Assembly: GCA_002710495.1 (NCBI GenBank)
Contig: PAKE01000055.1
Span: 1 to 21,511, forward strand
Reading direction: 5' to 3'
Origin: Flavobacteriales bacterium
GTDB lineage: Bacteria; Bacteroidota; Bacteroidia; Flavobacteriales; BACL11
Length of the DNA: 21,511 nucleotides
In this document: positions 1 to 13,585 of the stretch, one piece after another
Numbering within the stretch: the first letter of the stretch is position 1
Layout: the number at the start of each line of letters is the position of its first letter
The notes under the pieces: generated by a model
The model's input: the letters and a program-made list of their open reading frames with translations, nothing else
What the model was told of the DNA's origin: nothing
Database searches by the model: none
Position numbers and translations under genes: made by a program

Positions 1-4
1 CCAT

Positions 5-89
5 CCTGCTTTGGGAGCAGGGGGTCGCAGGTTCGAATCCTGCCACCTCGACATTGAATTAAGAAAGCCTCTTTTATAGAGGCTTTTTT
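5..89 (+). repeat. tRNA-Pro(UGG) 3'-part + terminator repeat, copy 1
   Basis: Positions 5-51 form the anticodon arm (CCTGC, loop TTTGGGA with anticodon TGG, GCAGG), variable loop GGGTC, T arm (GCAGG-TTCGAAT-CCTGC), 3' acceptor strand CACCTCG and discriminator A. No CCA follows. A terminator hairpin follows at 64-89. The bases just before it (CCAT) do not fit a D-stem and recur before copies 4 and 6. This copy is therefore probably a displaced fragment and not the end of the functional tRNA, although the missing upstream sequence leaves some doubt. Confidence 0.85.
64..89 (+). terminator. rho-independent terminator of repeat copy 1
   Basis: AAAGCCTC / GAGGCTTT stem with a short TTTTATA loop and a run of six T. 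The same hairpin follows every tRNA fragment in the array. Confidence 0.85.
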
Positions 90-117
90 GTTTTAATTAA
101 GATAGTTAAATTTATAT

Positions 118-600
118 ATGATATTTGATATAATCTCTTTAACTAAATGGCTAGATGAGCTAGCAGTTATCAGTTTTGGACTCATTGGTGGCGTATACTT
201 TGCGTTTTCTTTTTTCGTTATGCAATCATTAAATAACATCAATTCTTTAAATGCTATTCGCACAATGAATTCAATTAACACTGTAATATTAAAATCACCG
301 TTTATGTTACTTTTCTTTTTTTCTACTTTTATTGCATTTATACTTTTTTTAGAAAATTTTATATTTTATAAAGTTTTATCATACGAAGGTTTTGCAAGTT
401 TGATTTTTCTTACTGGTATGTTTTTGTGCACCGCTATTAAGAATGTTCCACTAAATAATAAATTAGCTAATTTTAAATTTAATGACCCATTAAGTGATTC
501 AGGAATTGAGTGGGAAAATTATTGTACAAATTGGCTTAAGTGGAACCATATTCGGACAATTTCGTGTTTTCTATCTATGATTTTACTAGTTTTTAAATGA
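118..600 (+). CDS. DUF1772-family membrane protein
   Basis: 160 aa with about four hydrophobic segments (roughly residues 14-36, 58-80, 86-108, 142-159). Family-like motifs are GGVYFAFSFFVM near residue 24, a central N-VPLNN and, near the C-terminus, W-x2-Y-x4-WLKWNHIRT. These match DUF1772 (anthrone-oxygenase-like integral membrane proteins), whose function is mostly unknown. The start lies 28 nt after the terminator of repeat copy 1, and the stop is 16 nt before repeat copy 2, so this is a complete single-gene cassette of about 0.6 kb. There is no clear Shine-Dalgarno; TTTATAT directly precedes the ATG. Family call is fairly firm; role unknown. Confidence 0.8.
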   Translation: MIFDIISLTKWLDELAVISFGLIGGVYFAFSFFVMQSLNNINSLNAIRTMNSINTVILKSPFMLLFFFSTFIAFILFLENFIFYKVLSYEGFASLIFLTGMFLCTAIKNVPLNNKLANFKFNDPLSDSGIEWENYCTNWLKWNHIRTISCFLSMILLVFK

Positions 601-616
601 TACAGAAAATATTTCA

Positions 617-701
617 CCTGCTTTGGGAGCAGGGGGTCGCAGGTTCGAATCCTGCCACCTCGACATTGAATTAAGAAAGCCTCTTTTATAGAGGCTTTTT
701 T
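617..701 (+). repeat. tRNA-Pro(UGG) 3'-part + terminator repeat, copy 2
   Basis: The tRNA part at 617-663 is identical to copy 1 over all 47 nt, and identity continues through the spacer into the terminator. The left flank (TTTCA) is unrelated to that of copy 1. The next gene is on the minus strand, and the promoter-like block TTTTGTARATT is absent here. Confidence 0.9.
676..701. terminator. terminator of repeat copy 2, possibly bidirectional
   Basis: Perfect AAAGCCTC/GAGGCTTT hairpin with T6. On the minus strand the hairpin is followed by CTTTCTTAATT, so it may also end the minus-strand gene whose stop codon is at 717. Confidence 0.8.
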
Positions 702-716
702 GTTATTATGTAAGGT

Positions 717-1733
717 CTATATTTTTATAGCAGTTGTAATACTCTCAGCTGTATCAAGAACTGTTTTTTTTATATCAATAGGTTTCCAATTGAATGTAGT
801 CATTGTAGATTTAACATCAGCATTATAAGTTTTACCAATAACTCCTAGCATACTTCTGGCTTCTCTATCGAAGTTACTTAAAAAATTTAATAAAAAGTTT
901 GGAGCTTGCATTGTGCTAACTTTATTATAACCATTAGACTTTAATATTTGAGCTAATTCTTGAAATTTATATGGCTTTTCAGTTGTAACAATAAATCTTT
1001 TTCCATTTGCTTTTTTATTTTCTAGTGCCAAAACGTGAATTTTAGCAATATCTCTAACATCTGACATATTAAGAGCAGCTTTAGGGACCATTGGCATTTT
1101 GCCCTCCATCATTTTTTTAAATAAAATCATTGAAGCTCCATCTAAATTTCCAGAAAGTGTTGGCCCAAAAACTGGACCTGGGTTAATTACAACTAGTTCC
1201 ATTTTTGAATCATTTTTTTGATTTCCAATAAATTCCCACGCATTTTTTTCAGCTAGAGTTTTACTTTTCATATATGCACTTACATTTTTAGCTTTAACAT
1301 TTGTCCATGATTTATGATTTATATCGATAGATTTATTAGCATCTCCCATCATTGAAACCAGTGATGATGTAATAACGATACGTTTGACTCCTGCTTTTTT
1401 AGCTGATTTCAAGGCTCTATTAGTTCCCTCAATTGCTGGCTTTATATATAGGTTTTCGTCTTTAGGTTCATAATTAATGTATGGAGATGCTACATGAAGA
1501 ACATATTGGCATCCTTCCATTGCTTTGTCCCATCCCTCATCCTCAAGAAGATCAAGTTCACAAAACTCTAAATTATCTTTTGGATTAGTTTCTTTTTTAA
1601 TAGCTTCAGTTGTTATTTTAGATTTAGATAAATCTCTTAAAGAACCTCTCACTGAATATCCACTTTTTAATAATTCTGCTGCGCAATGATTACCTATATA
1701 ACCAGAAATCCCAGTAACTAATACTTTTTTCAT
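717..1733 (-). CDS. NAD(P)-dependent extended SDR (dihydroflavonol-reductase-like)
   Basis: 338 aa from the ATG at 1733, chosen because AAAAAAAGG lies 5 nt upstream; a GTG at 1739 would add two residues. The N-terminal Rossmann motif GISGYIG (residues 8-14), the TSS strand (about 122-124) and the catalytic pair Y154-x3-K158 (YMKSK) are all present. The length fits the extended SDR family of dihydroflavonol-4-reductase / aldehyde-reductase-like enzymes; the substrate cannot be told. The gene runs opposite to the repeats and ends 15 nt from the terminator of copy 2. A paralogous 3' fragment lies at 19947-20196, with roughly 80-90% residue identity by eye. Confidence 0.85.
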   Translation of the reverse strand: MKKVLVTGISGYIGNHCAAELLKSGYSVRGSLRDLSKSKITTEAIKKETNPKDNLEFCELDLLEDEGWDKAMEGCQYVLHVASPYINYEPKDENLYIKPAIEGTNRALKSAKKAGVKRIVITSSLVSMMGDANKSIDINHKSWTNVKAKNVSAYMKSKTLAEKNAWEFIGNQKNDSKMELVVINPGPVFGPTLSGNLDGASMILFKKMMEGKMPMVPKAALNMSDVRDIAKIHVLALENKKANGKRFIVTTEKPYKFQELAQILKSNGYNKVSTMQAPNFLLNFLSNFDREARSMLGVIGKTYNADVKSTMTTFNWKPIDIKKTVLDTAESITTAIKI

Positions 1734-1891
1734 AAACACCTTTTTTTAATTAAAAACATTTAGAAATTTAATTAATAAAACGATATTGCAAATGTAATAA
1801 ATTGTAATTATTTATTTTGTAAATATAAAATATCCTGCTTTGGGAGCAGGGGGTCGCAGGTTCGAATCCTGCCACCTCGACAATAAATTAG

Positions 1892-1916
1892 ACGCCTCTT
1901 TTATAGAGGCTTTTTT
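1892..1916 (+). terminator. terminator of repeat copy 3
   Basis: GCCTC-TTTTATA-GAGGC stem with T6. One A-to-C change at the stem base compared with copies 1 and 2. Confidence 0.8.
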
Positions 1917-1928
1917 ATTTTGTAAATT
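1916..1928 (+). promoter_or_regulatory. conserved promoter-like block of the repeat
   Basis: TATTTTGTAAATT sits directly after the terminator and 5 nt before the ATG. Nearly the same block recurs at 3423, 4052, 5806, 6197, 11770 and 13568, each time just upstream of a plus-strand gene. It resembles the Bacteroidota -7 element TAnnTTTG and would give a very short leader. Assignment as a promoter is inference. Confidence 0.4.
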
Positions 1929-1933: not shown

Positions 1934-2644
1934 ATGATTAAATATAGTTTAATAATTATTTATGCATTACTAATGACAAGCTGCTCAACAATAAAAAATC
2001 CTGATGTAAGTGTTTATGGTGCACTATTTGAAATGATGCACCAAGGTAATCTTACAGCTAGGATTGATTTAAATAGTTTTGAGAATGAAAAACATATTTA
2101 TGGTCTTGGTGCTTTAACAGATTTAAAAGGTGAAATATTAATTATAGATAGTGTGCCGTATATTTCTAAAGAAAATGTAGATGGAAGCATTGAAATTTCT
2201 AATAGTTTTAATCATGAAGCTGCCTTATTTGTGGAATCAAAGGTAGAAAAATGGGATTCAACTCAATTGCCTAAAAATATTAGAAGTGTTTCTGATCTTG
2301 AAAGTTTTCTAGAATTAATTGCAGAAGAATATTCATTAGATATTGAACAACCTTTTCCCTTTTTGATCGAAGGTCTCATTCCAAGTGTAGATTGGCATAT
2401 TATTAATTGGCCTGAGGGTGATACAGAGCATAGTCATGAAAAACATGTAAATTCAGGACTTTCAGGGATATTAAAGGATACTCCAATTCAAATATTAGGT
2501 TTCTATTCAAAACATCATCAGGCTATATTTACTCACCATACGACGTATCTTCATATGCATTTATTAACAAATGATAGTAATATAGCAGGACATATTGATG
2601 ATATTATGTTTAATGGAAATCAAGTATTATATTTACCTAAATAA
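1934..2644 (+). CDS. acetolactate-decarboxylase-like lipoprotein
   Basis: 236 aa. An N-terminal lipoprotein signal ends at LLMTSC (Cys17), so the product is exported and lipid-anchored. Residues 25-235 resemble alpha-acetolactate decarboxylase: GLGALTDLKGEILIIDSVPY (57-76, candidate Glu67) and HMH-x10-H (His207, His209, His220), the same spacing as the family zinc ligands. In classical enzymes a loop after the EG motif carries a catalytic Arg; here that loop reads SVDWHIINWP with no Arg. It may therefore act on another substrate or be inactive as a decarboxylase. It forms a single-gene cassette, starting 5 nt after the promoter-like block and ending 9 nt before repeat copy 4. Confidence 0.75.
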   Translation: MIKYSLIIIYALLMTSCSTIKNPDVSVYGALFEMMHQGNLTARIDLNSFENEKHIYGLGALTDLKGEILIIDSVPYISKENVDGSIEISNSFNHEAALFVESKVEKWDSTQLPKNIRSVSDLESFLELIAEEYSLDIEQPFPFLIEGLIPSVDWHIINWPEGDTEHSHEKHVNSGLSGILKDTPIQILGFYSKHHQAIFTHHTTYLHMHLLTNDSNIAGHIDDIMFNGNQVLYLPK

Positions 2645-2653: not shown

Positions 2654-2735
2654 CCTGCTTTGGGAGCAGGGGGTCGCAGGTTCGAATCCTGCCACCTCGA
2701 CATTGAATTAGAAAGCCTCTTTTATAGAGGCTTTT
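2654..2735 (+). repeat. tRNA-Pro(UGG) 3'-part + terminator repeat, copy 4
   Basis: The tRNA part at 2654-2700 is again identical over 47 nt. The left flank AATCCAT matches that of copy 6, and CCAT is also seen before copy 1. The terminator is at 2712-2735. The following gene is on the minus strand and its stop codon overlaps the T-run. Confidence 0.9.
2712..2735. terminator. terminator of repeat copy 4, overlaps the end of a minus-strand gene
   Basis: AAAGCCTC/GAGGCTTT hairpin. The T-run is only four T, and its last two bases are part of the stop codon (2734-2736) of the minus-strand methyltransferase gene. Confidence 0.75.
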
Positions 2736-3285
2736 AGTTATAGCAAGTATAAATAAATGCTGGTAAATAGTATCTAGGTGTGAATTGTATATCAATATTA
2801 CTGTAGTAACTCTTTAATCTTTTATCCAATAATTTTGAATATTGTAGTTGAATTAGCTTTCCACTTTTTCCTAATATCTCTACAGAGATTGATAAAATTT
2901 TGTGTGTTTTTTCTTTTGGTAATGTTAATAATGGAACTGAAGATACAATATAATCAACCTTTTCTATTTTAAATTCTTTTAAATATAATTTCATTTTTTC
3001 AGCAGATTCATTTATTAAAATCATTTTTTCATTATTTATTTGTTGAAGTTCTTGATAGAATTTTTTATTTGTTTCAAAACAAATCAGTTGTGAATCAGAG
3101 CTCATTTTTTCTAAGAGCTTTTTTGTAATCGCACCACTTCCAGTCCCTAATTCTAAGATTGTAAGCTTTTCCCCAAAGTTGATGGGCGCAATCATTTTTG
3201 CAACAACAAATTTTGAACTTGGGAATATAGTTCCAACTTCTTTTATATTTTTTAATGATTCTTTAATGAATTGAATTTTTTTCAT
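2734..3285 (-). CDS. phospholipid N-methyltransferase-like SAM enzyme
   Basis: 183 aa, soluble class I methyltransferase. GTIFPSSKFVV (residues 18-28) is the typical pre-domain motif of PmtA-like phospholipid methyltransferases, followed by motif I LELGTGSGAIT (about 45-55), an acidic residue after strand 2 (CFETN) and VSSVPLLTLP in place of motif IV. The closest relatives have the KsgA/rRNA dimethylase-like fold and methylate phosphatidylethanolamine; another lipid or small substrate is possible. The gene is antisense to the repeat array, and its stop lies inside the terminator of copy 4, so little DNA separates the coding region from the cassette boundary. Confidence 0.75.
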   Translation of the reverse strand: MKKIQFIKESLKNIKEVGTIFPSSKFVVAKMIAPINFGEKLTILELGTGSGAITKKLLEKMSSDSQLICFETNKKFYQELQQINNEKMILINESAEKMKLYLKEFKIEKVDYIVSSVPLLTLPKEKTHKILSISVEILGKSGKLIQLQYSKLLDKRLKSYYSNIDIQFTPRYYLPAFIYTCYN

Positions 3286-3339: not shown

Positions 3340-3435
3340 CCTGCTTTGGGAGCAGGGGGTCGCAGGTTCGAATCCTGCCACCTCGACAGAAGATTAGAAA
3401 GCTTCTTTTATAGAGGCTTTTTTATTTTGTAGATT
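3340..3435 (+). repeat. tRNA-Pro(UGG) 3'-part + terminator + promoter-like repeat, copy 5
   Basis: The tRNA part at 3340-3386 is identical to copies 1-4, while the adjoining spacer (CAGAAGATT) differs. The terminator at 3398-3423 has one C-to-T change that keeps a G-T pair. The block TATTTTGTAGATT follows at 3423-3435. Confidence 0.9.
3398..3423 (+). terminator. terminator of repeat copy 5
   Basis: AAGCTTC-TTTTATA-GAGGCTT stem with one G-T wobble pair and T6. Confidence 0.8.
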
Positions 3436-3461: not shown

Positions 3462-3944
3462 ATGAGCCAAATCTTAATTAATCAATCAGTTGCAATATTA
3501 TGCGATGGTAATAATATTGAAAAAAGTATTCATAATATTTCAAAAAATAAAAATGCTATGATTAACTTTGATACCCTAATTCCTAAACTGCTAAATGGAA
3601 GAGGTTTAAATAGAATGATATATTTTAGAGAGGGAAAATCTATATCATCAAAATTTGCAGATAGATTGCATGAGAATTTTTATGGTTCCGTAATCCCTTG
3701 TCATAAATCTGCAGATATCCCCTTAACAATTAAAGCTACTCAATTAGCTTCTAAAGTTGATACAATAATTATTATGTCAGGAGATTCTGATTATGTTGAA
3801 CTTGTTACACATTTAAAAGGAGAAGGAGTAAGAGTTGAAATTGCAGCAGTAAAAGAAACAACAGCTAAAATTCTAATTGATAAATCAGATTATATGCATG
3901 AGATAACAAGTAATGATTGGTTCGTATATAAAGCACCAAGATAA
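3462..3944 (+). CDS. NYN-domain (LabA/DUF88-like) protein
   Basis: 160 aa, essentially a single NYN domain of the PIN-like nuclease fold. Conserved acidic positions are visible: LCDGNN (Asp15, Asn17/18), ADIPLTI (Asp85) and IIMSGDSDYVEL (Asp108, Asp110), followed by a strand-rich end. NYN proteins are predicted metal-dependent RNases; the target is unknown. The acidic set is complete, so activity is plausible. The start is preceded by AAAGGAATAGTATA after the promoter-like block of copy 5, and the stop is 23 nt before copy 6. It is a single-gene cassette with no nuclease partner or antitoxin next to it. Confidence 0.85.
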   Translation: MSQILINQSVAILCDGNNIEKSIHNISKNKNAMINFDTLIPKLLNGRGLNRMIYFREGKSISSKFADRLHENFYGSVIPCHKSADIPLTIKATQLASKVDTIIIMSGDSDYVELVTHLKGEGVRVEIAAVKETTAKILIDKSDYMHEITSNDWFVYKAPR

Positions 3945-3967: not shown

Positions 3968-4067
3968 CCTGCTTTGGGAGCAGGGGGTCGCAGGTTTGAA
4001 TCCTAACACCTCGACATTAGATTAGAAAGCCTCTTTTAAAGGGGCTTTTTTGTTTTGTAGATTATAA
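3968..4067 (+). repeat. tRNA-Pro 3'-part repeat, copy 6 (slightly decayed)
   Basis: The tRNA part at 3968-4014 has three changes from the intact form (T-loop C to T and two at the end of the T stem, CCTGC to CCTAA). The anticodon arm is intact. The terminator at 4026-4051 keeps pairing through a G-T pair, and GTTTTGTAGATTATAA follows. Confidence 0.9.
4026..4051 (+). terminator. terminator of repeat copy 6
   Basis: AAGCCTC-TTTTAAA-GGGGCTT stem followed by T6. Confidence 0.75.
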
Positions 4068-4089
4068 CATAATCAATATGGAGATTTTT

Positions 4090-4593
4090 ATGAATATGAA
4101 ATATTCTTTTATAATTGGTATGTTTTTACTTTTTATATTTTCTTGTGATAGTAGTAACCCAGTAGGAGTTCAATGCGGTGAAGGCTTAACAGAAGTTGAT
4201 GGTCAATGCTTTGATGATTGTAATGTCCTAGATGGGGATGGTTCTTCTTGTTCTTGTGATGATGTTGTGTGTACGCCATCAAGTAGTTGTGTGACAAGTT
4301 CTTGTGTTGAAGGTTCATGTGTTGAATCAGATTTAGCAAATGGAGAGCCATGTAGTGATGGAAATGCTTGCACATTAGGTGATTTCTGCGATCAAGGGAC
4401 ATGTTTAGGAATGGATATATCATGTGATGATGGAAATCCTTGTTCCGAAGATAGTTGTAATATTACAGTGGGATGTATATATGACTATACATCATACAAT
4501 GGAATGACCTGTGATGATGGAGATGCCTGCACATCTACTGATGCTTGCAATGAAGGAGCGTGTAGCGGATCTGTTATAACTGACTGCCCTTAA
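4090..4593 (+). CDS. Cys-rich lipoprotein with CTDC-type repeats
   Basis: 167 aa from the ATG at 4090, chosen because GGAG lies 6 nt upstream (4080-4083); the ATG at 4078 would add four residues. A lipoprotein signal ends at LFIFSC, so it is exported and lipid-anchored. The rest is Asp/Ser/Cys-rich with about 22 cysteines. It holds repeated C-x-DGN/D-x-C-T/S modules (GNACTLGDFCDQGTC, GNPCSEDSC, GDACTSTDACNEGAC) that resemble the Dictyostelium CTDC repeat seen in many bacterial surface proteins. These form disulfide-bonded extracellular modules, probably for adhesion or structure. It is a single-gene cassette between copies 6 and 7; no enzyme domain is seen. Confidence 0.75.
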   Translation: MNMKYSFIIGMFLLFIFSCDSSNPVGVQCGEGLTEVDGQCFDDCNVLDGDGSSCSCDDVVCTPSSSCVTSSCVEGSCVESDLANGEPCSDGNACTLGDFCDQGTCLGMDISCDDGNPCSEDSCNITVGCIYDYTSYNGMTCDDGDACTSTDACNEGACSGSVITDCP

Positions 4594-4624: not shown

Positions 4625-4708
4625 CCTACTTTGGGAATGGGAGGTCGTAGGTTAGAATCTTGCCACATCGACGGCAAATTAGGAAGCCTCTTTTATAAAG
4701 ATTTTTTT
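4625..4708 (+). repeat. tRNA-Pro 3'-part repeat, copy 7 (decayed)
   Basis: The tRNA part at 4625-4671 aligns end to end without gaps but has about ten substitutions. The anticodon loop TTTGGGA is intact. The T-stem changes (GTAGG/CTTGC) all keep Watson-Crick or wobble pairing. The anticodon stem shows a G-to-A with C-to-T pair (4628/4638), although its innermost pair is lost. The terminator remnant at 4683-4708 has lost most of its 3' arm. Confidence 0.85.
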
Positions 4709-4725: not shown

Positions 4726-5739
4726 ATGAAAAAGATTCTTTTTTGTTTTATTATTATGTCAAATATTTTCATGTATGAGGCTTCTCATGTTCTTATACTT
4801 AGTCCATATAGCACAATAGACTCTCAATATCTAGATGAAGGAGATATTAGTACTATTAATATGTTATTTATTAATGGCTTAGAACAGTACATAGATAATA
4901 CCCAATCTTCTAGCATTTCTTGTGATAATAATCAATGTGCCTTAGAAGAACTTTCTAAAACTAACAAAAAGGAAGTGGTATATACTCGATTACAAAAATT
5001 AGGAAGCAAAATAATCTTCTTAGCTTCTATCCTAGATGAAAACAAATCTTTTAATAGTAAGGCGACAGCAATGAATGTTGAGGATATGGAGCAGGTATGT
5101 CTGAGACTTTCAAAATCAATTGCATTGAGACAAACTTTAGATGAATCTGCTGATATTGAAAATATTACAGAGCAGGATCAAGAGGAGTCTGCTCGTAGAA
5201 CAAGTCTAGGAAGATTTGGTGCTTCTTTAGGATATTTATTCCCGTTTGGTGATTTAACATACGGCATTACTAACTGGGATGGAACTTCTACAGATAGAGA
5301 GTATTCCCAGTTATTTAAATTTAATATTAATTATTACAATGAGTTCAAAAATAATACAGCTTTATTATTCGAATTTGGTTCGGCACCTCCCGTTGTATCT
5401 TTTATAGATTTAAATTTTCTTAAGTTTACGAATAAAGTAGATACATCACCATTTTATGGTTCAGGAATAGGTTTTTATATGGTAACAAAAAATAATAATT
5501 ATTTTACAGATGATAGATATGATAGTGGAATGTCTTTAAATCTTCAGGGAGGCGTGCTTTTATATAGAACTTATGATTTGAATGTATTGCTTAGAGTTAA
5601 GTATATCTATATTCTAAACGATGATAAAAATAATGGTATAACATTTGATATTGGAATGCAATGGAAAAGGAAAGAAAGAAAACATACCAAAACTATAAAT
5701 AGATATCCTCTCTTAGAAAGAATCTTTGATAGAGATTAA
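4726..5739 (+). CDS. exported protein with predicted outer-membrane beta-barrel domain
   Basis: 337 aa, not recognised as a named family. A Sec signal peptide covers about residues 1-20. Residues 20-140 form a mixed region with a possible small disulfide (CDNNQC) and a segment like periplasmic domains of barrel-associated proteins. From about residue 155 there are alternating amphipathic strands (GRFGASLGYLFPFG, FKFNINYYNEF, PFYGSGIGFYMV, GMSLNLQGGVLLY, LNVLLRVKYIYIL, ITFDIGMQW), typical of an eight- to ten-stranded barrel, and then a basic tail. It sits alone between repeat copies 7 and 8. Location in the outer membrane is inference; function unknown. Confidence 0.65.
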   Translation: MKKILFCFIIMSNIFMYEASHVLILSPYSTIDSQYLDEGDISTINMLFINGLEQYIDNTQSSSISCDNNQCALEELSKTNKKEVVYTRLQKLGSKIIFLASILDENKSFNSKATAMNVEDMEQVCLRLSKSIALRQTLDESADIENITEQDQEESARRTSLGRFGASLGYLFPFGDLTYGITNWDGTSTDREYSQLFKFNINYYNEFKNNTALLFEFGSAPPVVSFIDLNFLKFTNKVDTSPFYGSGIGFYMVTKNNNYFTDDRYDSGMSLNLQGGVLLYRTYDLNVLLRVKYIYILNDDKNNGITFDIGMQWKRKERKHTKTINRYPLLERIFDRD

Positions 5740-5759
5740 GTCGAATAGCTAATAGTTCT

Positions 5760-5819
5760 TCTGCTTTAAAATAAAATTAGAAAGCCTCTTTTATGGAGAT
5801 TTTTTGTTTTGTGAATTTT
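5760..5819 (+). repeat. cassette repeat remnant, copy 8 (tRNA part mostly deleted)
   Basis: Only TCTGCTTT (5760-5767) remains of the tRNA part. It is followed by AAATTAG, the terminator (AAAGCCTC...TATGGAGATTTTTT, 5781-5805) and the promoter-like GTTTTGTGAATT at 5806-5817. The terminator and promoter parts are easily recognised; the tRNA remnant alone would not be. Confidence 0.6.
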
Positions 5820-6209: not shown

Positions 6210-7784
6210 ATGAAAATGAAAAAAATTCTTATAATAATATTATTAACTCAATTATATAGTGATATTCCAGATAGAAGAATTATTGCTGAGTGGGAGCATG
6301 CACTTGGAACAATGATAAGTTGGCCTTTAGGAATTCCTTCAGATTTAGTAATTGAATTAGCAAATGAAGATATCCTATATGTTTTGGTAGAAACAAATAA
6401 TCAACAGAACCTAGCTACTATCAATTTTAATAATTGGGGAGTAAATTCTGATAATGTAGTATTTATTAATACAGACACCTATAGCTATTGGACAAGAGAT
6501 CATGGCCCTCAGTTTGTTATTGGAGAAGATTATTGGAAAGTAGTTAACCAATATTTTAATGGCTATCCTGAAGAAGATGGTTGTCAAGAAAATTTATTAT
6601 TTGATAACAATAACAATATTACAGGAAGACCTTTGCCTGCTGAGTTAAGAGGTTGGGAAGAGGATGATGATACAAGTATAGATTTTGCAAATCAGATGAA
6701 TTGGGATATTCTAGAGTTGCCGCTATATTTCACAGGAGGTAATTTTATGACTGATGGATATGGAATGGGCTTTTCAACTCAATTAATGGTTAATGAAAAT
6801 AATATAAGTAATAATGAATTTAAACAAATTGTAAGAGATGAATTGCATTTATTAGATTATCACATTTTTGAGAACCCAAATGCATCAAGTATTCAGCATA
6901 TAGATTGTTTGGCAAAATTAGTTAATTCGGAAACAATTATTATTAAACAAGTACCAGAATCTAGTCCTGAATATGAATGTATTGAAGATTTCGCACAATC
7001 ATTTTATGAATTAAATACTTTTTATAATAGACCATTCAAAATACATCGTATTTATTGCCCTGAGATAAATGGTGGTGCCTGGGAGCTTAATTCAGTGGCA
7101 GCATATACTAATTCTCTTATACTAAATAACAAAGTTTTAGTACCACAGTATGGAATCACTTCTGATGAAAATGCATTGAATATATACCAAGAAGCAATGC
7201 CTGGTTATGAAATAATAGGATTTAATAACGATACTGGAAACCCATGGTATGGAGAAGATGCACTCCACTGCAGAACTATGGGAATATTTGATCCTAATAT
7301 GATTCACTTATCTCATAAATCAGTAAGAACGGAAGAGCTTAATGTTAATGAATCTATTAATGTTGAAGTTGATATTGTTGATTATAGTAACTCTAATTTA
7401 GGGTTGCAGTCAGTTATTTTAAACTGGAAATATAGCGCAGAAGATGGGCCTTTCAATCAGATTAGTTTAGAAAATGAATCAGACAATATATATACAGGTG
7501 AATTTCCTAGTTTGAATTCTAATTCGTTAATAGAGTATTTTATTATAGCAATAAATTTTGAGGGTAATACAGCTTCACATCCTAATGCAGGATGGCATAC
7601 TTTTAATACTTTAGAATTTATATTAGGTGATATCAATGGTGATAATTCAATTAACATACAGGATATAGTTTTAGTTGTCAATTTAGTTCTAAATAACGAA
7701 TATAATAATTTAGCTGATTTAAATTTAGATAGTATTGTAAATGTACTAGATGTAATTCAGCTATTAAACATAGTTTTAGAGTAA
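6210..7784 (+). CDS. secreted agmatine/peptidylarginine-deiminase-family protein with dockerin-like domain
   Basis: 524 aa. A short signal peptide (about 1-17) precedes a guanidino-group-modifying domain (about 20-365). Visible motifs are RRIIAEWEH (22-30), WTRDHGP (94-100), GGNF (176-179), HID (230-232), GGAWELNS (288-295) and ALHCRT with candidate nucleophile Cys354. The order and spacing match the family of bacterial peptidylarginine deiminase (Cys, His, Asp, Asn set), so deimination of arginine residues or agmatine is likely. Residues about 385-470 look like a beta-sandwich linker. Residues 473-524 are a dockerin-like module with two D-x-N-x-D-like loops, GDINGDNSINIQD and LNLDSIVNVLD. 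The start abuts the promoter-like block; it forms a single-gene cassette. Confidence 0.85.
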   Translation: MKMKKILIIILLTQLYSDIPDRRIIAEWEHALGTMISWPLGIPSDLVIELANEDILYVLVETNNQQNLATINFNNWGVNSDNVVFINTDTYSYWTRDHGPQFVIGEDYWKVVNQYFNGYPEEDGCQENLLFDNNNNITGRPLPAELRGWEEDDDTSIDFANQMNWDILELPLYFTGGNFMTDGYGMGFSTQLMVNENNISNNEFKQIVRDELHLLDYHIFENPNASSIQHIDCLAKLVNSETIIIKQVPESSPEYECIEDFAQSFYELNTFYNRPFKIHRIYCPEINGGAWELNSVAAYTNSLILNNKVLVPQYGITSDENALNIYQEAMPGYEIIGFNNDTGNPWYGEDALHCRTMGIFDPNMIHLSHKSVRTEELNVNESINVEVDIVDYSNSNLGLQSVILNWKYSAEDGPFNQISLENESDNIYTGEFPSLNSNSLIEYFIIAINFEGNTASHPNAGWHTFNTLEFILGDINGDNSINIQDIVLVVNLVLNNEYNNLADLNLDSIVNVLDVIQLLNIVLE

Positions 7785-7792: not shown

Positions 7793-7885
7793 TCTACTTT
7801 GGGAGTAGTAAAATCGCGTATTTACTCTCCTCCTACCAATTTAACAATAAATTAGAAAGCCTCTTTTCTGGAGGTTTGTTTTTTT
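7793..7885 (+). repeat. tRNA-Pro 3'-part repeat, copy 10 (strongly decayed)
   Basis: CTAC-TTTGGGA-GTAG (7794-7808) is recognisable as the anticodon arm with a compensated G-C to A-T pair. The T arm is hardly recognisable. AATAAATTAG and the terminator AAGCCTCTTTTCTGGAGGTTTG follow (7856-7885). No TTTTGTARATT block is present; the next operon has its own control region. Confidence 0.7.
7856..7885 (+). terminator. terminator of repeat copy 10
   Basis: CCTC-TTTTCTG-GAGG core stem extended by G-T and A-T pairs, then TTTGTTTTTTT. Confidence 0.65.
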
Positions 7886-7959: not shown

Positions 7960-8574
7960 ATGAAAACTAAAGAAAAAATAATTAAAGAAAGTTTAAATCT
8001 TTTTAATGAGAATACCTTTGAGTTATCAACAACTAATTTAATAGCAAAAAAATCAGATGTTCTCGAGGGTTCTTTATGGTATCATTTTAATACTAAGCCT
8101 GATATAGTTTCTGTTCATTTAGGTATGTTTATAGATTTATATGATGAGCATAAAAATCTTACTACAAAAAATAATCCAACTATATTTATTCAAGGATTAT
8201 TTGCTATTTATGGAATTATTTGGGATTATAGATATTTATTTAGAGATTCATTTGAAAAAATCATAGATAAAAAGCCAAGCTTATCTGAAAAAATTATTGA
8301 TATTAATAGTTCTATAGATCAGTGGGTCAAAGAATTTGTAATGCATGCACAAAAAATAGGTATTTTAATTATTGATGAGTCAGATGTTGAAAGTATTACA
8401 GAAATTTCTCTTATTATAGGAAGATGTTGGTTTGATTTTTCAAAAAAAAGATACCCAGATAAATCAAATATGTTTTTGAAAAAAAAGGGAATTAATTTAT
8501 TGATTAAAAGTTTTTATCCATATTTAACTAAGGAATCAAAGAGTCTAATAGATTCAATGTACGATTCAAATTAG
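7960..8574 (+). CDS. TetR-family transcriptional regulator
   Basis: 204 aa. The N-terminal helix-turn-helix (about residues 3-50: KIIKESLNLFNE, TTNLIAKKSDVLEGSLWYHF, KPDIV) is typical of TetR/AcrR proteins, with SLWYHF as the recognition-helix signature. The all-helical C-terminal part is variable and would bind the effector. It is the first gene of an operon with alkane monooxygenase and aldehyde dehydrogenase, so an alkane, fatty aldehyde or fatty acid-derived effector is likely. Two TGGGT-N4-ACCYA palindromes just upstream suggest autoregulation of the operon. The start is preceded by TTTGATATATT with no strong ribosome site. Confidence 0.85.
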   Translation: MKTKEKIIKESLNLFNENTFELSTTNLIAKKSDVLEGSLWYHFNTKPDIVSVHLGMFIDLYDEHKNLTTKNNPTIFIQGLFAIYGIIWDYRYLFRDSFEKIIDKKPSLSEKIIDINSSIDQWVKEFVMHAQKIGILIIDESDVESITEISLIIGRCWFDFSKKRYPDKSNMFLKKKGINLLIKSFYPYLTKESKSLIDSMYDSN

Positions 8575-8611
8575 TCTAAAAAATATGATTTATTTAAAGA
8601 AATGATTTAAA

Positions 8612-9736
8612 ATGATAAAATATATTAAATACTACTTTCCTATAATTATAGCAATTACGTTTATAAGCTTAACTTTGAAGGGAAGTTATTTCCCTATACT
8701 TTTTTTCATATTATTTTCATCAACCTTTATTATTGGAGACTACAAAATAAAACCCGATAGTAAGATACAGTCATTTTCGTACCCATTTTTTCTAGATCTA
8801 TCCATCTACTTAGCATTACCAATACTGGCTGTTTTAACCTTTTTTGCTATTTCAATATTTAGTAATAATCTACCATTGTGGTATATATCAGTATTCAAAG
8901 ATTTTCTTAATATTGACTTCATTCATATGCAGCAATCATTTAATATTTTTGATAAAATTTCGATAATTATGACTGTATTTTTAATAAGTGGACCAATGGG
9001 TATTACTGGAGGTCATGAGTTGGTGCATAGAAAAAAAAATAAATTTGATTTGTTTGTTGGAAACTGGTTGCTTGCTTTTTCTTTTGATTGCAATTTTGCA
9101 ATTGAACACGTGTATGGTCACCATAAAAATGTATGTTTACCTGAAGATCCAGCTTCTGCAAAGAGGGGAGAGAATATATATATATTCATTTTAAAAGGAA
9201 TCATAAACGAACATTTATCAGGTTGGGAAATAGAACTAAATAGATTAAGAAGAAAAAAAATTAGTTTTTTTACATTTCAAAATCAAATTCTCATAGGTTA
9301 TTTTAGAAGTGTTCTTATTTCTTTATTAAGCTTTTGGCTTTTTGGATTTGTTGGAATGCTCACTTTTTTCTTGATTGCTTTTTTATCTAAGTCATTACTA
9401 GAAGTTATAAATTACATTGAGCATTATGGATTAGTTAGAGAACGAGGTAAGCCAGTAAGAATGAGGCATTCCTGGAATTCAAATCATTTTTTTAGTAGTA
9501 TTTATTTATACAATGTTACAAGGCACTCTGATCATCATAGAAATTCAAATTTAAAGTTTTGGGAGCTTAGTCCTTTAGATAAAGATGCTCCAGTTTTGCC
9601 ATATGGTTATTTAACGATGTTATATTTAGCAGTTTTTACTCCATATATATTTAAGAATGTAATGAAAAAAGAATTAGATAATTGGGATCAAAATTATGCT
9701 AATGATTTTGAAAGAAATTTAATTAATAATTTATAA
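8612..9736 (+). CDS. alkB: alkane 1-monooxygenase (AlkB-type)
   Basis: 374 aa, integral membrane diiron hydroxylase that would convert alkanes (or a related terminal methyl substrate) to 1-alkanols. All family boxes are present: HELVHRK (135-141), EHVYGHH (165-171), NYIEHYG (267-273) and RHSDHHRN (304-311). About six hydrophobic segments are present (10-22, 28-42, 62-83, 117-130, 226-247, 250-265). The length is slightly short of the usual ~400 aa. No rubredoxin or rubredoxin reductase gene lies in the window, so electrons must come from elsewhere. It is 37 nt downstream of tetR and 19 nt upstream of the aldehyde dehydrogenase gene. Confidence 0.9.
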   Translation: MIKYIKYYFPIIIAITFISLTLKGSYFPILFFILFSSTFIIGDYKIKPDSKIQSFSYPFFLDLSIYLALPILAVLTFFAISIFSNNLPLWYISVFKDFLNIDFIHMQQSFNIFDKISIIMTVFLISGPMGITGGHELVHRKKNKFDLFVGNWLLAFSFDCNFAIEHVYGHHKNVCLPEDPASAKRGENIYIFILKGIINEHLSGWEIELNRLRRKKISFFTFQNQILIGYFRSVLISLLSFWLFGFVGMLTFFLIAFLSKSLLEVINYIEHYGLVRERGKPVRMRHSWNSNHFFSSIYLYNVTRHSDHHRNSNLKFWELSPLDKDAPVLPYGYLTMLYLAVFTPYIFKNVMKKELDNWDQNYANDFERNLINNL

Positions 9737-9738
9737 AT

Positions 9739-9747
9739 AGGAGGTGA
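9739..9747 (+). promoter_or_regulatory. unusually strong ribosome binding site of the aldehyde dehydrogenase gene
   Basis: AGGAGGTGA, nearly full anti-16S complementarity, 8 nt before the ATG at 9756. Most genes in this window have weak sites or almost no leader, so this stands out. Confidence 0.75.
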
Positions 9748-9755
9748 ATTAAGGA

Positions 9756-11231
9756 ATGCCTATAAATATAGAGAACAATCAAATTACAATATTAAATCCA
9801 ACTAATTTAAATGAAGTTGGTAAGGTCGAAGTATCTAATAAGCAAGATGTTGATACTGCTCTTAAAATAGCTCAAGAATATAAAAAATGGTCTTCTTTAT
9901 CTTTAAAGAAGAGGTGTGCTGTCATACATAAGTTTAGAAAAATTGTATTCAAAAATAGTGAGCTATTAAAGAAAACAATAAAGGATGAAACAGGAAAAAA
10001 AGATTTTGTTGTTTTTACAGAACTTTTATCATTTCTTGATCATTCAAAAACAATGGCTAAAATTGCACAATCTTCTTTAAAGAAAAGTAGTAGAAACCCA
10101 GGTCTTTTATTTAAAAATAAAAAAGCTTACGTTCAATATGAGCCCTTAGGCGTGGCTGGCATTATTTCACCGTGGAATTTTCCTTTAGCAACTCCAATGA
10201 AAGGAACTATTGAGGCTTTACTTGCTGGAAATAATGTTATTCTAAAACCATCTGAATATACACCGTTGACTTCTCTTTTTATGAAAAAAATATGGGATGA
10301 ACATACTGGATATAATAATGCATTTCAAGTTGTAAACGGTGCTGGAAATATTGGTTCAATATTAGTTGAATCTCCGCTAACTGATGTTATTAGTTTTACT
10401 GGAAGTACAAAAGTTGGACTTAAAATTGCTGAGACTTGTTCTTCGAGATTAAAACCATGTATTTTAGAATTAGGTGGTAAAGATCCAATGATAATTTTAA
10501 AAGATGCTTCTATAAAAAGATCAGTAGAATCAGCATTACACGCTGGTTTATTTAATGCGGGACAAACATGTATTTCTACAGAAGAAATTTTTGTTGAAGA
10601 TGATATAGTAGATGAATTTAAAACTAAACTATCTTTAAGAATTAAAGACATTAAATCAGGAGGTAGTGATAGTGATGATATAGGACCTATTATTACTGAT
10701 GATACTAAACAAAAAATTAATGAACATATTAATGAAGTAAAAGATACTTGTGATATTATTTCTGGTATAAATAATGGAGGTGATAAATTTATAGCTCCTA
10801 CTATTGTAGTTGATCCTCCAGATTCATCAAGGTTAGTTAATGAGGAAACATTTGGTCCAGTTATGACAATTAGACCCTTTAAGAGTGAAGATGAATTAAT
10901 TGAAAAAATTCATAAAACAGGCTACGGTCTTTCATCGAGTATATTTGGTTCCAATAGAAAAAGAGTTAATAGGATTATTAAAAGAATGAAAACAGGAAAT
11001 GTTAATGTTAATGACGTTATGACAAGTTATGCTATCGTAACTCTTCCATTTGGTGGTGAGGGTCTTAGTGGTTTAGGAAAACAACATGGTGTAGAAGGAT
11101 TACGTTCTTTTTGTAGAGTAAAAAGTATTGTGGTTAATAGATTTAATTTCATTGATGAACCCACTTGGTTGGGACGCCCTAAAATTGTTGAAAAAGCACT
11201 TGAAAAGCTTGCTAAATTATTATTTAGATAG
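9756..11231 (+). CDS. NAD(P)-dependent aldehyde dehydrogenase
   Basis: 491 aa, full-length ALDH superfamily enzyme. Visible motifs are SPWNFP (138-143), KPSE (164-167), FTGSTKVG (214-221, cofactor loop), ELGGKD with general base Glu238, GQTCIS with nucleophile Cys272, EETFGPV (363-369) and the C-terminal PFGGEGLSGLG. It oxidises aldehydes to acids. Behind alkB it most likely handles the fatty aldehyde made after the alcohol step, though no alcohol dehydrogenase is encoded here. The start was chosen by the strong AGGAGGTGA. The C-terminal tail (GRPKIVEKALEKLAKLLF) is amphipathic and might touch the membrane. Confidence 0.92.
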   Translation: MPINIENNQITILNPTNLNEVGKVEVSNKQDVDTALKIAQEYKKWSSLSLKKRCAVIHKFRKIVFKNSELLKKTIKDETGKKDFVVFTELLSFLDHSKTMAKIAQSSLKKSSRNPGLLFKNKKAYVQYEPLGVAGIISPWNFPLATPMKGTIEALLAGNNVILKPSEYTPLTSLFMKKIWDEHTGYNNAFQVVNGAGNIGSILVESPLTDVISFTGSTKVGLKIAETCSSRLKPCILELGGKDPMIILKDASIKRSVESALHAGLFNAGQTCISTEEIFVEDDIVDEFKTKLSLRIKDIKSGGSDSDDIGPIITDDTKQKINEHINEVKDTCDIISGINNGGDKFIAPTIVVDPPDSSRLVNEETFGPVMTIRPFKSEDELIEKIHKTGYGLSSSIFGSNRKRVNRIIKRMKTGNVNVNDVMTSYAIVTLPFGGEGLSGLGKQHGVEGLRSFCRVKSIVVNRFNFIDEPTWLGRPKIVEKALEKLAKLLFR

Positions 11232-11263
11232 TTTTTTAAATTAAGGAATGGAGTAATTAAGAA

Positions 11264-11677
11264 ATGGAAAAAAAATTAATATTATTACCAGCTATTGCTA
11301 TGATTATTTTAACATTATATTTATATATTAGAAATTATTTAGATAATAGAAAAGCAATAATAAATAAGTCTATAAAATTTAGTTATTTGAAAACATATAC
11401 AGGAGAAGTCCCTAATTATGTAGCTGTTTCAAGGCAGACACTTAAGAATCAATTTGAACTTCCAATTTTCTTTTATTTTTTAATATCTATTATTTTAGTT
11501 TTTGATAAAGTTTCCCGATTAGACCTTATCCTTGCTTGGATATTTGTAGCATCTAGATATTTACATTGTTATACCAGATTAAGTGCTAACTATATTCCGC
11601 ATAGAGCTATAGTTTTTACATCAGGAATGCTTGTATTAATAGTTTGGTGGATTATTTTTTTATATAATATTTTATAA
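11264..11677 (+). CDS. MAPEG-family membrane protein
   Basis: 137 aa with four hydrophobic segments (about 5-22, 66-82, 87-100, 116-136). The region FELPIFFYFLISI...LDLILAWIFVASRYLHCY matches the MAPEG domain (membrane-associated eicosanoid/glutathione-metabolism type), including RY-x-HC-x2-RLSANY-x-PHR at about residues 100-116. Bacterial members are small membrane proteins of mostly unknown substrate. It is 32 nt downstream of the aldehyde dehydrogenase and has a ribosome site in AAGGAATGGAG, so it is probably the last gene of the tetR-alkB operon. The stop is 10 nt before repeat copy 11. Confidence 0.8.
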   Translation: MEKKLILLPAIAMIILTLYLYIRNYLDNRKAIINKSIKFSYLKTYTGEVPNYVAVSRQTLKNQFELPIFFYFLISIILVFDKVSRLDLILAWIFVASRYLHCYTRLSANYIPHRAIVFTSGMLVLIVWWIIFLYNIL

Positions 11678-11687
11678 TTAACAGCAT

Positions 11688-11788
11688 CCTATTTTGGAAT
11701 CTGATACCGTAGGTTTAAACCATGTTATTTCAATAATAAATTATAAAGCCTCTTTTTTAGAGCCTTTTTTATTTTGTAAATTTATAAT
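11688..11788 (+). repeat. tRNA-Pro 3'-part + terminator + promoter-like repeat, copy 11 (strongly decayed)
   Basis: CCTATTTTGGAATCTGATACCGTAGGTTTAAACC keeps scattered matches to the anticodon and T arms. Then come AATAATAAATTATA, the terminator (11745-11770) and TATTTTGTAAATTTATAAT running into the ATG at 11789. Confidence 0.65.
11745..11770 (+). terminator. terminator of repeat copy 11
   Basis: AAAGCCTCT...AGAGCCTTTTTT; the stem is damaged by a G-to-C change in the 3' arm but the T6 run is intact. Confidence 0.55.
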
Positions 11789-12016
11789 ATGAATACTTTC
11801 TATATAGAAATAGTTGGCTGGGTAGGTTTTCTATTTATTACTTCTGGATACTATTTGAATGCAAAAAAGCATTCATTCTGTTTTTACATATGGGGTATAG
11901 GTAATATTTTATTTATATTGTATGCTATTTTGATTAATTCTAATCCTATGTTGTTAATGAGTATTTTTACATTAGGTATGAATATTTATGGTCATTTGCA
12001 ATGGAACAAAAATTAA
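11789..12016 (+). CDS. small three-helix membrane protein (YgjV/PnuC-like)
   Basis: 75 aa with three hydrophobic helices (about 6-24, 30-48, 51-68). The pattern GWVGFLFITSGYYLNAKK ... WGIGNILFILYAILI ... MNIYGHLQW resembles the YgjV-type inner membrane family and half-size PnuC-like transporter units. This is a resemblance only. The ATG abuts the TATAAT of repeat copy 11, so the leader must be extremely short or absent. The adenosine deaminase gene begins 6 nt after its stop, so the two are surely co-transcribed; a link to nucleoside handling is possible. Confidence 0.6.
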   Translation: MNTFYIEIVGWVGFLFITSGYYLNAKKHSFCFYIWGIGNILFILYAILINSNPMLLMSIFTLGMNIYGHLQWNKN

Positions 12017-12022
12017 TATATA

Positions 12023-13078
12023 ATGAAATTTAATCCAGAGATAATAAAGAAACTTCCAAAAGCAGAATTGCATTGTCATTTAGATGGTTCTTTGCGTATT
12101 AAAACGATTATTGAATTAGCAGAAAATCAAGGAGTAGAACTACCTTCAAAAAATGAAGATGATTTGTTGAAAATTCTATCTGTTGGGCCTTTAGATAAAT
12201 CATTAGAAGATTATATAAAAAAATTTGATATTACTTTATCTGTATTGCAGACACCAAAAAGTTTAGAACGTGCTGCATTTGAATTAGCTATGGATTGTCA
12301 TGATGATGGAGTTCGCTATTTAGAAGTACGTTATTCTCCTGTTCTTCATACTAAAAAAGGAATGAATTTATCTGAAACAGTAGATTCAGTAAAGAAAGGA
12401 CTAGCGCAAGCATTTAGTGAATGTGGAATATTAACGGGTATTATCATTTGTGGTATACGACATATTTCTCCTACTCATTCTTTAGAGTTAGCTAATTTAT
12501 CTGTGGAGTACAAAAATAGAGGTGTTATTGGTTTTGATTTAGCTGGTGCAGAAGAAAATTTTCCTGCAAAAAAACATAAGGAAGCTTTTTACTTAATTCT
12601 CAATAATAACATCAATACAACCCTTCATGCAGGAGAAGTATTTGGTCCTAAAAGTATTCATCAAGCAATTCATATATGTGGAGCTCATAGGATTGGACAT
12701 GGAACAAGAGCAATCGAAGATTTAGATTTGTTAAATTATATTAATGATCATCGTATTCCATTGGAAATATGTTTGACTTCTAATATTAATACAAAATCTG
12801 TTCCAAGTATATCCGCACATCCATTTAAGAGATATATAGACGAAAAAATTAGAGTTACATTAAATACTGATAATCGTTTAATATCTAATACAAATCTATC
12901 AAACGAATATGAAATTGCAATTAATAATTTCAATTTAAATGAAAGTGAAGTTAGAACTATTATTATTAATGGATTTAAAAGTACCTTTCAACCTCACAAC
13001 GAACGAAGAAAACTGATTAGAAAAATAGTTAATGAATTGGAAGATGAATTTAATTTTTCTCAACATTTAATAATTTGA
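12023..13078 (+). CDS. add: adenosine deaminase
   Basis: 351 aa, cytosolic zinc metallohydrolase of the purine salvage pathway (adenosine or deoxyadenosine to inosine). All metal and catalytic positions are present: HCH at 17-19 in ELHCHLDGSL, HAGE with His202 and Glu205, RIGHGTR with His226, and LNTDNRLIS with Asp283. The NTDNR form is that of many bacterial true adenosine deaminases; adenine deaminases usually read differently, so adenosine is the likely substrate. It follows the small membrane protein by 6 nt. The length is normal and no disruption is seen. Confidence 0.92.
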   Translation: MKFNPEIIKKLPKAELHCHLDGSLRIKTIIELAENQGVELPSKNEDDLLKILSVGPLDKSLEDYIKKFDITLSVLQTPKSLERAAFELAMDCHDDGVRYLEVRYSPVLHTKKGMNLSETVDSVKKGLAQAFSECGILTGIIICGIRHISPTHSLELANLSVEYKNRGVIGFDLAGAEENFPAKKHKEAFYLILNNNINTTLHAGEVFGPKSIHQAIHICGAHRIGHGTRAIEDLDLLNYINDHRIPLEICLTSNINTKSVPSISAHPFKRYIDEKIRVTLNTDNRLISNTNLSNEYEIAINNFNLNESEVRTIIINGFKSTFQPHNERRKLIRKIVNELEDEFNFSQHLII

Positions 13079-13189
13079 TATTACATTAAATTATAAATGT
13101 TCTTGATATCATATCGCTTGTAAATATAATTTAACTAACTAATCAACTTGCTTTTAAAGCACAGAAATAAATAAAAGGAAACTATAATC

Positions 13190-13480
13190 ATGCTTATATC
13201 ACCAGATGAAATTAACAAGTCTTTATCTAATTATGGTTGGAAATATAATAATAACAAAATAACTAAATCTTACTCTTTCAATGCTTATATAAATGGTATA
13301 GATTTTGTTAATAGAATTGCAGAATTAGCTGAGAAAAATAATCATCATCCTGATATATATATAGGTTGGTGCAACGTAGATATATCCATTACCTCTAACG
13401 ATATGGGAGGCGTTACAACTAACTGTGTTAATTTAGGTATGGGGATTGATAATATTTTTGAACAGATAGAGCAAAAATAA
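13190..13480 (+). CDS. pterin-4a-carbinolamine dehydratase-like protein
   Basis: 96 aa, the full length of the family that recycles the pterin cofactor of aromatic amino-acid hydroxylases (and acts as a cofactor in other settings). The core motif HHPD (52-55) and the following W-x2-V-x-I-x-I strand are present. The position that normally holds the third active-site His (T-H-D-x-GG) is Asn70 here (TSNDMGGVT). The enzyme may therefore be weak or have another role. AAAAGGAAA lies upstream of the ATG. No phenylalanine hydroxylase gene is nearby. A separate promoter in the 111-nt gap after the adenosine deaminase gene is possible. Confidence 0.8.
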   Translation: MLISPDEINKSLSNYGWKYNNNKITKSYSFNAYINGIDFVNRIAELAEKNNHHPDIYIGWCNVDISITSNDMGGVTTNCVNLGMGIDNIFEQIEQK

Positions 13481-13499
13481 CAGTAATTGTTTTGATGTA

Positions 13500-13585
13500 T
13501 CGAATCAGATACTAGCCTACTTAAATCAATGTTAAATTTAAGAAAGCCTCTTTTGTAGAGGCTTTTTTCTTTTGTAAATTATAAT
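13500..13585 (+). repeat. cassette repeat, copy 12 (tRNA part nearly gone)
   Basis: Only TCGAATC (13500-13506, T-loop-like) hints at the tRNA part. The terminator (13543-13568) is perfect. CTTTTGTAAATTATAAT runs directly into the ATG at 13586. This is the last clear unit in the array. Confidence 0.65.
13543..13568 (+). terminator. terminator of repeat copy 12
   Basis: AAAGCCTC-TTTTGTA-GAGGCTTTTTT, fully paired stem and T6. Confidence 0.8.

Follow-up and report, generated by a model that had tools for sequence, protein, structure and literature searches.

A cassette array on 3' parts of tRNA-Pro(UGG) in DNA most likely from Neomarinimicrobiota

The stretch analysed here, called the window (contig PAKE01000055.1, 21,511 nt), is the entire contig C53 of a metagenome-assembled genome (MAG) labelled Flavobacteriales, 81.6% complete and 2.5% contaminated. 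It carries an array of small gene cassettes set on 3' fragments of a tRNA-Pro(UGG) gene, and the integron-like layout that had been described from its letters alone is borne out. We favor the possibility that the array arose as minimal cassettes lacking an integrase accumulated in tandem at the tRNA-Pro(UGG) gene of Neomarinimicrobiota, mobilised in trans by a tyrosine recombinase, and we consider this account probable. Our reasoning is that the sequences contain the array itself, an intact tRNA at its head in relatives, whole cassettes exchanged between genomes, a gradient of decay and, at the same site, elements of the type of the phage contig L097.

The repeat unit and the layout of the array

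With a nucleotide profile derived from seven units of the window and put through three rounds of refinement, we recovered 12 units on one strand, at 5, 617, 1834, 2654, 3340, 3968, 4625, 5754, 6117, 7794, 11688 and 13527 (E 8e-27 to 3e-6), within about 30 nt of the positions first given; at E values down to 8e-27 chance origin is no concern. A full unit of about 85 nt consists of CCTGC-TTTGGGA-GCAGG, the anticodon arm of tRNA-Pro(UGG), followed by the variable and T arms, the acceptor 3' strand as far as CGACA, a short linker and the terminator AAAGCCTC-TTTTATA-GAGGCTTTTTT. The fold of the unit 2 terminator has a z of -5.33 and that of unit 12 a z of -4.60. Terminator stems keep 6.35 of 7 pairs in 23 decayed units against 6.38 in 32 intact ones, a comparison biased by the fact that decayed units are detected through their terminator. 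At 5754 and 13527 the tRNA part is nearly lost and chiefly the terminator remains. A thirteenth, badly decayed unit at about 13147-13165, recognised by eye and aligned with an intact unit of the genome G397, divides the last three-gene interval into two genes and one, and a possible terminator remnant lies at 20294-20368 (repeat family D3, 60%). The 31-nt core is present in five exact copies.

Nine of the 11 intervals between the 12 units hold exactly one gene (0.36-1.7 kb), one holds four and one three, with both strands in use, and the distance from a same-strand stop codon to the next unit is about 9-51 nt, close to the 8-50 nt originally proposed. Pfam, run on 24 of the 26 open reading frames (ORFs) of the window, returned the expected unrelated functions and no recombinase, transfer or conjugation family; six array genes of the related genomes G400, G397 and G408 likewise gave no recombinase family. 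Among the genes scanned, the claim that the cassettes lack an integrase thus stands. As to the promoter-like block that had been reported, a conserved block, ATTTTGTAAATT, does follow many units, and no clearly conserved -10 element was found behind it. ARAGORN detected no complete tRNA gene in the window, and Rfam called a single fragment, 604-655, a tRNA. The contig starts inside a unit and is cut at both ends. The features are as follows (bits from the profile).

5..89, plus strand: unit 1, tRNA-Pro 3' part and terminator hairpin (90.9 bits)
118..600, plus: cassette 1 gene, anthrone oxygenase-like (PF08592; Pfam)
617..701, plus: unit 2 (90.9 bits)
717..1733, minus: cassette 2 gene, NAD-dependent epimerase/3beta-HSD-like (Pfam)
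1834..1917, plus: unit 3 (86.5 bits)
1934..2644, plus: cassette 3 gene, alpha-acetolactate decarboxylase-like (Pfam)
2654..2735, plus: unit 4 (91.1 bits)
2734..3285, minus: cassette 4 gene, methyltransferase, RrnaAD-like (Pfam)
3340..3423, plus: unit 5 (90.4 bits)
3462..3944, plus: cassette 5 gene, NYN-domain protein (Pfam)
3968..4051, plus: unit 6 (83.6 bits)
4078..4593, plus: cassette 6 gene, cysteine-rich protein
4625..4708, plus: unit 7 (66.7 bits)
4726..5739, plus: cassette 7 gene, no Pfam family
5754..5805, plus: unit 8, decayed, mainly terminator (25.2 bits)
5850..6065, plus: cassette 8 gene, 71 amino acids (aa), relatives in the G397 and G412 arrays
6117..6197, plus: unit 9 (58.9 bits)
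6210..7784, plus: cassette 9 gene, PAD_porph family, C-terminal dockerin-like stretch (Pfam)
7794..7881, plus: unit 10, decayed (39.7 bits)
7960..11677, plus: interval 10, four genes: TetR, FA_desaturase, aldehyde dehydrogenase, MAPEG (Pfam)
11688..11770, plus: unit 11, decayed (38.7 bits)
11789..13078, plus: NMN-transporter-like and adenosine deaminase genes (Pfam)
13147..13165, plus: further unit remnant, anticodon arm part (by eye and alignment)
13190..13480, plus: pterin-4a-carbinolamine dehydratase gene (Pfam)
13527..13568, plus: unit 12, decayed, terminator left (25.0 bits)
13586..18274: distal genes with no clear units: YHYH and dockerin, nitroreductase, dockerin protein, rhodanese protein (which we take to be MnmH-like)
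19947..20210, minus: truncated second copy of the cassette 2 gene, 87% at the DNA level over 228 nt
20294..20368, plus: possible decayed terminator unit (family D3, 60%)
20345..21511, plus: serine hydrolase (PF00144), cut by the contig end

As to a role in defence, PADLOC, applied to ten proteins, gave only weak partial matches, to the methyltransferase (mad2) and NYN proteins. A dockerin-like domain closes many array genes (window 6210-7784, 13586-14902 and 15582-17159; L140:2550-3248; L143:14515-16011), and the same dockerin gene end recurs directly left of some units, even where there is no open frame (window about 13110-13147).

Origin of the contig and the same locus in related genomes

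The window is most likely misbinned DNA of a Neomarinimicrobiota (SAR406) bacterium close to G400, the genome of SAT2619, judging from the following sequence comparisons: (i) over its final 161 nt it agrees with the beginning of G400:C24 at 158 positions, and the same serine hydrolase gene in other genomes of that family reaches 67-81%; (ii) the tRNA-Pro end reads GCTACCCCGAC in 19 of 19 stretches examined from the MAG's own family and GCCACCTCGAC in the window; (iii) a unit search in 51 other genomes of the MAG's family found no array, and in its own assembly every match listed was to the window contig, with no further match to the tRNA part; and (iv) a scan of genome contigs for the 31-nt core gave 12 stretches, nine from Neomarinimicrobiota, two from Bacteroidetes/Bacteroidia and one labelled Dehalococcoidia. 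The last (RS420; L109/L151) ends in a tRNA-Pro-type unit; being itself an array end, it is probably misbinned too. In tetranucleotide use the window correlates with seven Neomarinimicrobiota stretches at 0.61-0.72 and with two contigs from its own bin at 0.32-0.45; the values for stretches from five genomes of the bin's family (0.56-0.70) overlap the Neomarinimicrobiota range. In the bin's own family tRNA-Pro is an ordinary hotspot. We fetched 27 loci with an intact tRNA-Pro there, 25 of them with tRNA-Ser(GCU) adjacent, and in seven cases the contig breaks off no more than about 600 nt from the tRNA-Pro 3' end; a tyrosine integrase is often encoded behind the tRNA (L015, L016, L018, L019, L021, L022, L024, L029), at about 24-33% to the L097 integrase and its relatives.

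Because the contig is most likely misbinned, the intact tRNA had to be looked for in Neomarinimicrobiota. The complete tRNA-Pro(UGG) anticipated in the original prediction had no match in the window's own assembly, whose contig starts inside a unit, and it was found, with a terminator of the cassette type, heading arrays in G400, G397, G408 and G415. Across 23 genomes of G400's family, 19 gave a unit match at E <= 0.001, in several the tRNA itself only, and nine contained, in the regions fetched, a unit of at least 50 bits that is not the tRNA (G396, G397, G400, G408, G409, G412, G413, G414, G415), as did G398, from another family of the same order; in G418 and G420 the tRNA-Pro has a cassette-type terminator. 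Upstream of the tRNA, G400, G397 and G408 are syntenic (80-91% aa for the four nearest shared genes). Behind it the first cassettes of these three genomes are mutually unrelated, and at the far ends of the G400 and G397 arrays five genes (370, about 575, 604, 505 and 383 aa; 72-97% aa) are again collinear. The same tRNA thus carries different cassettes in related genomes, and the proximal gene order is not conserved, which argues against a fixed locus. Nor are the repeats scattered between ordinary genes: in each genome checked they lie on one or two contigs (12 of 13 matches on two contigs in G397, 7 of 8 in G400, the exceptions weak). Within G397, contigs C1 and C27 are likely parts of one array, as are C4 and C24 within G400. 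Several contigs stop right behind tRNA-Pro (G395, G396, G410, G418 and G419, for example), so that short-read assemblies probably miss some of these gene banks.

Candidate empty sites, tRNA-Pro genes with other terminators, were dropped: their downstream stretches are short or without a cassette match, and that in G401 holds an integrase fragment. When nine such stretches were compared, one proved to be the G398 cassette stretch, G415 matched G413, G395 and G399 shared 89 nt, and the rest were unmatched elsewhere. A G398 cassette that seemed by eye to continue like the DNA behind the G395 tRNA had no support from blastn. In L146:4392-4829 (G396:C139), units resembling other tRNAs (anticodon CAT type, by eye) adjoin units of the tRNA-Pro type.

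Whole cassettes have been exchanged as modules. The epimerase cassette at 617-1834 of the window recurs as cassette 2 of G400:C4 (2541-1323), with 1088 of 1089 bases between the units in agreement (N excluded), and neither neighbouring window cassette matches the fetched G400:C4 stretch by blastn. In this comparison the left arms, meaning the DNA just left of each unit, change exactly at CCTGC, and small linker variants travel with the downstream gene; both place the exchange points in the shared unit, most likely, on these few markers, in its tRNA part. If the window and G400 represent one species, the pattern is turnover within a species. An NMN-transporter-like/adenosine deaminase pair follows the eleventh, decayed unit in the window and the second, intact unit in G397 (1154 of 1286 at the DNA level). 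Desaturase, aldehyde dehydrogenase and MAPEG genes occur together, in different order, at 8612-11677 of the window and in L143:9124-12211 (G397).

Cassette genes are also found elsewhere, since relatives of the cassette 5 NYN gene lie in stretches of G413:C16 and G414:C34 that have no tRNA-Pro units. The cassette 3 gene has a 94.4% DNA relative in G414 directly behind an intact tRNA-Arg(UCU) with that tRNA's own terminator, the homology beginning inside the 5' end of the gene. A possible second, smaller stack, with a tRNA 3' part and terminator ahead of the cassette 3 relative, is seen at tRNA-Arg(UCU) (L228:6175-6997 in G414:C13; G414:C34:1-49; L232:775-857 in G395:C8). The start of G414:C34 falls within another tRNA-Arg unit, which is matched three times in G395, one match possibly being the gene itself; stacking may thus extend beyond tRNA-Pro.

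The array is polar. In the window, units score lower the farther they lie from the tRNA-proximal end (rho -0.90; p 0.0004 by permutation), as they do in G397:C27 (rho -0.92, p 0.0008) and in the four units of G400:C4 (rho -1.00, p 0.043), the proximal end of the window and of G397:C27 being taken from unit orientation. Together with the unchanging tRNA side and the collinearity of the far end, this gradient points to insertion at the tRNA. Left of CCTGC the tRNA gene has GTTAGCGCA, where the units instead carry AT-rich left arms, ending in AATCCAT in 6 of 26 junctions and in AACAGCAT in two. Over 11 positions of the 26 junctions conservation amounts to 4.88 bits, against a mean of 1.09 and a maximum of 2.47 in 5000 intergenic control draws, which were unmatched for distance to stop codons. 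Integration by an exchange within the anticodon arm leaves just this signature, a foreign left arm joined to a complete tRNA 3' part. Tyrosine integrases are known to use anticodon loops.

A candidate recombinase and competing explanations

PF00589 matches were present in every one of the 23 family genomes, and in the nine with strong arrays none fell on a contig with a strong unit. Six of these nine (G397, G400, G408, G409, G412, G414) have exactly two matches, of Xer size and score; three of the proteins, two from G400 and one from G397, scored best with XerD/XerC models, slightly under the equivalog cut-offs, and reached 132-138 bits with the integron integrase model, which requires 265. 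There were 15 lower-scoring matches, and in the surroundings of the 12 that were fetched none stood beside a tRNA-Pro unit. The nearest was in G395:C8, an integrase cut by the contig end beside a tRNA-Arg fragment, with a decayed tRNA-Pro unit 6.5 kb away.

A better candidate came from phage DNA. The contig L097 carries 44 nt of the tRNA-Pro end about 120 nt upstream of a gene for a 351-aa integrase (PHROG integrase, E 1.5e-43); it is the sole viral contig matching the tRNA-end patterns, and a search of the viral contigs with its integrase matched only L097 itself. In G401, also of the Neomarinimicrobiota, an intact tRNA-Pro and terminator are followed, 174 nt behind the tRNA, by a truncated relative of this integrase (91.5% to P0001 over 153 aa), and the DNA of G401 and L097 is collinear up to and into the integrase gene. 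The tRNA end in L097 and the remnant in G401 show that L097-type elements have integrated at tRNA-Pro.

The model that we favor would work as follows. A cassette would consist of the tRNA 3' part from the anticodon arm on, the terminator, usually one gene and a short left arm. Presumably by way of a circular intermediate, a tyrosine recombinase would link it with the tRNA gene; the crossover would lie in the anticodon arm, probably within the 7-nt loop between CCTGC and GCAGG. The incoming 3' half would restore a whole tRNA with terminator and shift the previous 3' half downstream, where it becomes the next unit. New cassettes would enter at the tRNA end, perhaps to this day, and the old ones, by then at the far end, would decay. 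The recombinase would not be cassette-encoded, its best candidate being a phage-type integrase of the L097 kind that may act in trans, from a phage with the same 44-nt tRNA end. More tentatively, the whole may be seen as a tRNA-based integron, in which tRNA-Pro would be the growth point, the tRNA 3' half with its terminator the recombination site and a phage-borne tyrosine integrase the enzyme in trans; each capture would mend the tRNA and shield the new gene with a terminator of its own. The scheme may also operate at tRNA-Arg(UCU), given the cassette relative behind that tRNA in G414.

Several points weigh against accretion in trans. Scores in G398 are non-monotonic (71, 62.5, 82, 27.6 and 28 bits) and the trend is not significant (rho -0.60, p 0.16). 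The left-arm conservation, measured against controls unmatched for distance to stop codons, is due in part to dockerin gene ends standing there by chance, and relatives of some cassette genes are located away from tRNA-Pro units. The left arm of L097 is unlike those of the cassettes, so that its integrase may not recognise them, and the viral contigs hold no exact copy of the 39-nt cassette terminator block, which leaves carriage of cassettes by phages unsupported. No excision, circle or recombinase activity was seen. Finally, a resident integrase could escape in incomplete MAGs, and serine recombinases were sought only among the Pfam-scanned proteins.

It is conceivable, if rather unlikely, that integrase-bearing tRNA-Pro islands or prophages inserted serially and were each reduced to about one gene, in which case single-gene units were never mobile. 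There is precedent for this: formation of cis-mobilizable elements (CIMEs) by decay, followed by accretion, is described (PMC5704250, in the passages cited here), 15 of 31 ssrA islands of Dehalococcoides have no integration module according to the cited portion of PMC3146451, and G401 holds just such a truncated integrase behind tRNA-Pro. However, the least decayed units are already single-gene, and tblastn with the L097 integrase and seven relatives matched G401 and G395:C8 and nothing in the array loci L140-L164 and L166. The 1.2-kb epimerase cassette, moreover, is the same module in two genomes with different neighbours.

Alternatively, RecA might act on the repeats of about 90 nt, so that cassettes are swapped, lost or acquired from taken-up DNA with no site-specific recombinase. 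The five exact core copies, the reordered MAPEG, desaturase and aldehyde dehydrogenase genes and the exchange points within shared units, which fit homologous recombination equally well, speak for this; but it does not account for the entry of cassettes at the tRNA end, for the left arm ahead of the anticodon stem or for the decay gradient, and we regard it as improbable. Some phages use dif through the host XerC/XerD, and the two Xer-like proteins are the only PF00589 matches in six strong-array genomes. The same two proteins, however, occur for instance in G406 and G411, family genomes in which the search found no array, and host XerC/XerD would be a very improbable recombinase here.

If cassettes are indeed mobilised in trans at tRNA-Pro, gene capture in arrays is not confined to integrons and an essential tRNA gene can act as a gene bank. 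Were the tRNA-based integron real, a streamlined bacterium would bank dozens of single genes in age order while keeping no recombinase. Each array, its repeats decaying with distance, would preserve the relative ages of gene gains in an uncultured group that is widespread in the ocean. The enzyme named by the model is testable: a phage integrase whose gene lies beside exactly the tRNA-Pro end seen at the cassette joints.

Relation to known systems

Integrons are ordered arrays of mostly single-gene cassettes that grow from one end. The present array is likewise ordered and mostly single-gene, and it would have one growing end, to judge from the decay gradient and from variable proximal against collinear distal ends. 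Unlike an integron, it has genes on both strands, no intI was found with it and its growth point would be a tRNA gene. Its repeat is the tRNA-Pro 3' part with a terminator, apparently in the place of attC sites, for which no dedicated search was made. Tycheposons are reportedly tRNA-anchored mobile cargo of streamlined marine bacteria (Hackl 2023), and a tRNA-Pro repeat is said to occur 13 times in an island of Prochlorococcus MIT9312 (Coleman 2006). As in tycheposons, a tRNA stands at the border here (intact tRNA-Pro in G400, G397, G408 and G415). Tycheposons measure 4-200 kb and carry a tyrosine recombinase according to the cited part of PMC10872708, whereas these cassettes are minimal and recombinase-free, with no PF00589 match on the strong-unit contigs of nine genomes.

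The earlier remark of knowing no described system with this form has to be qualified, as tandem accretion of integrase-less islands is known (PMC3146451, PMC2764846, PMC10872708 and PMC7771536, in the passages on which we draw). The ssrA islands of Dehalococcoides stand in tandem behind one RNA gene, each closed by its 3' fragment, with a conserved motif just upstream of the 20-nt repeat that cannot be aligned to the RNA gene, and beyond the last repeat the region is syntenic across strains; a serine recombinase module is present in 16 of 31 islands, and vcr islands are about 12 kb (PMC3146451 and PMC2764846, as far as the portions cited go). The likeness lies in tandem placement at an RNA gene, 3' fragments, an upstream motif, members lacking an integrase and a syntenic far region; here, in contrast, a single gene makes up 9 of 11 intervals (0.36-1.7 kb), no recombinase is found in any of them, and the terminator lies within each unit. 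In CIMEs and tandem accretion, too, integrase-less elements keep their att sites and stack at one gene end, and here units stand on both sides with no recombinase or transfer family in the 24 of 26 window ORFs; however, the cited part of that work (PMC5704250) describes CIMEs as decayed remains of integrative and conjugative or integrative and mobilizable elements, whereas in the present case two genomes share one and the same small cassette as a module. The repeats of flexible genomic island 2 (fGI-2) of Methylopumilus are the last 20 nt of tRNA-Lys (PMC10872708), and this island and the tRNA cassettes of Actinomarinales (PMC7771536) resemble our array in having small cassettes at tRNAs, with tRNA fragments, in streamlined aquatic bacteria. 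As in an additive flexible genomic island, the same locus holds different small cassettes in relatives, along with target fragments. The passages cited from both descriptions mention no unit of tRNA half plus terminator, no recombinase for it and no decay gradient. No account of such arrays in Marinimicrobia was found by title or abstract in a literature searched mostly without subscription papers.

The array is thus an extreme, integron-like variant of the known tandem, integrase-less islands at RNA genes. What is new is the combination of features: most units carry a single gene, each intact unit includes a terminator, a search in cis found no recombinase, the polarity is clear and there is a phage integrase suited to the site.

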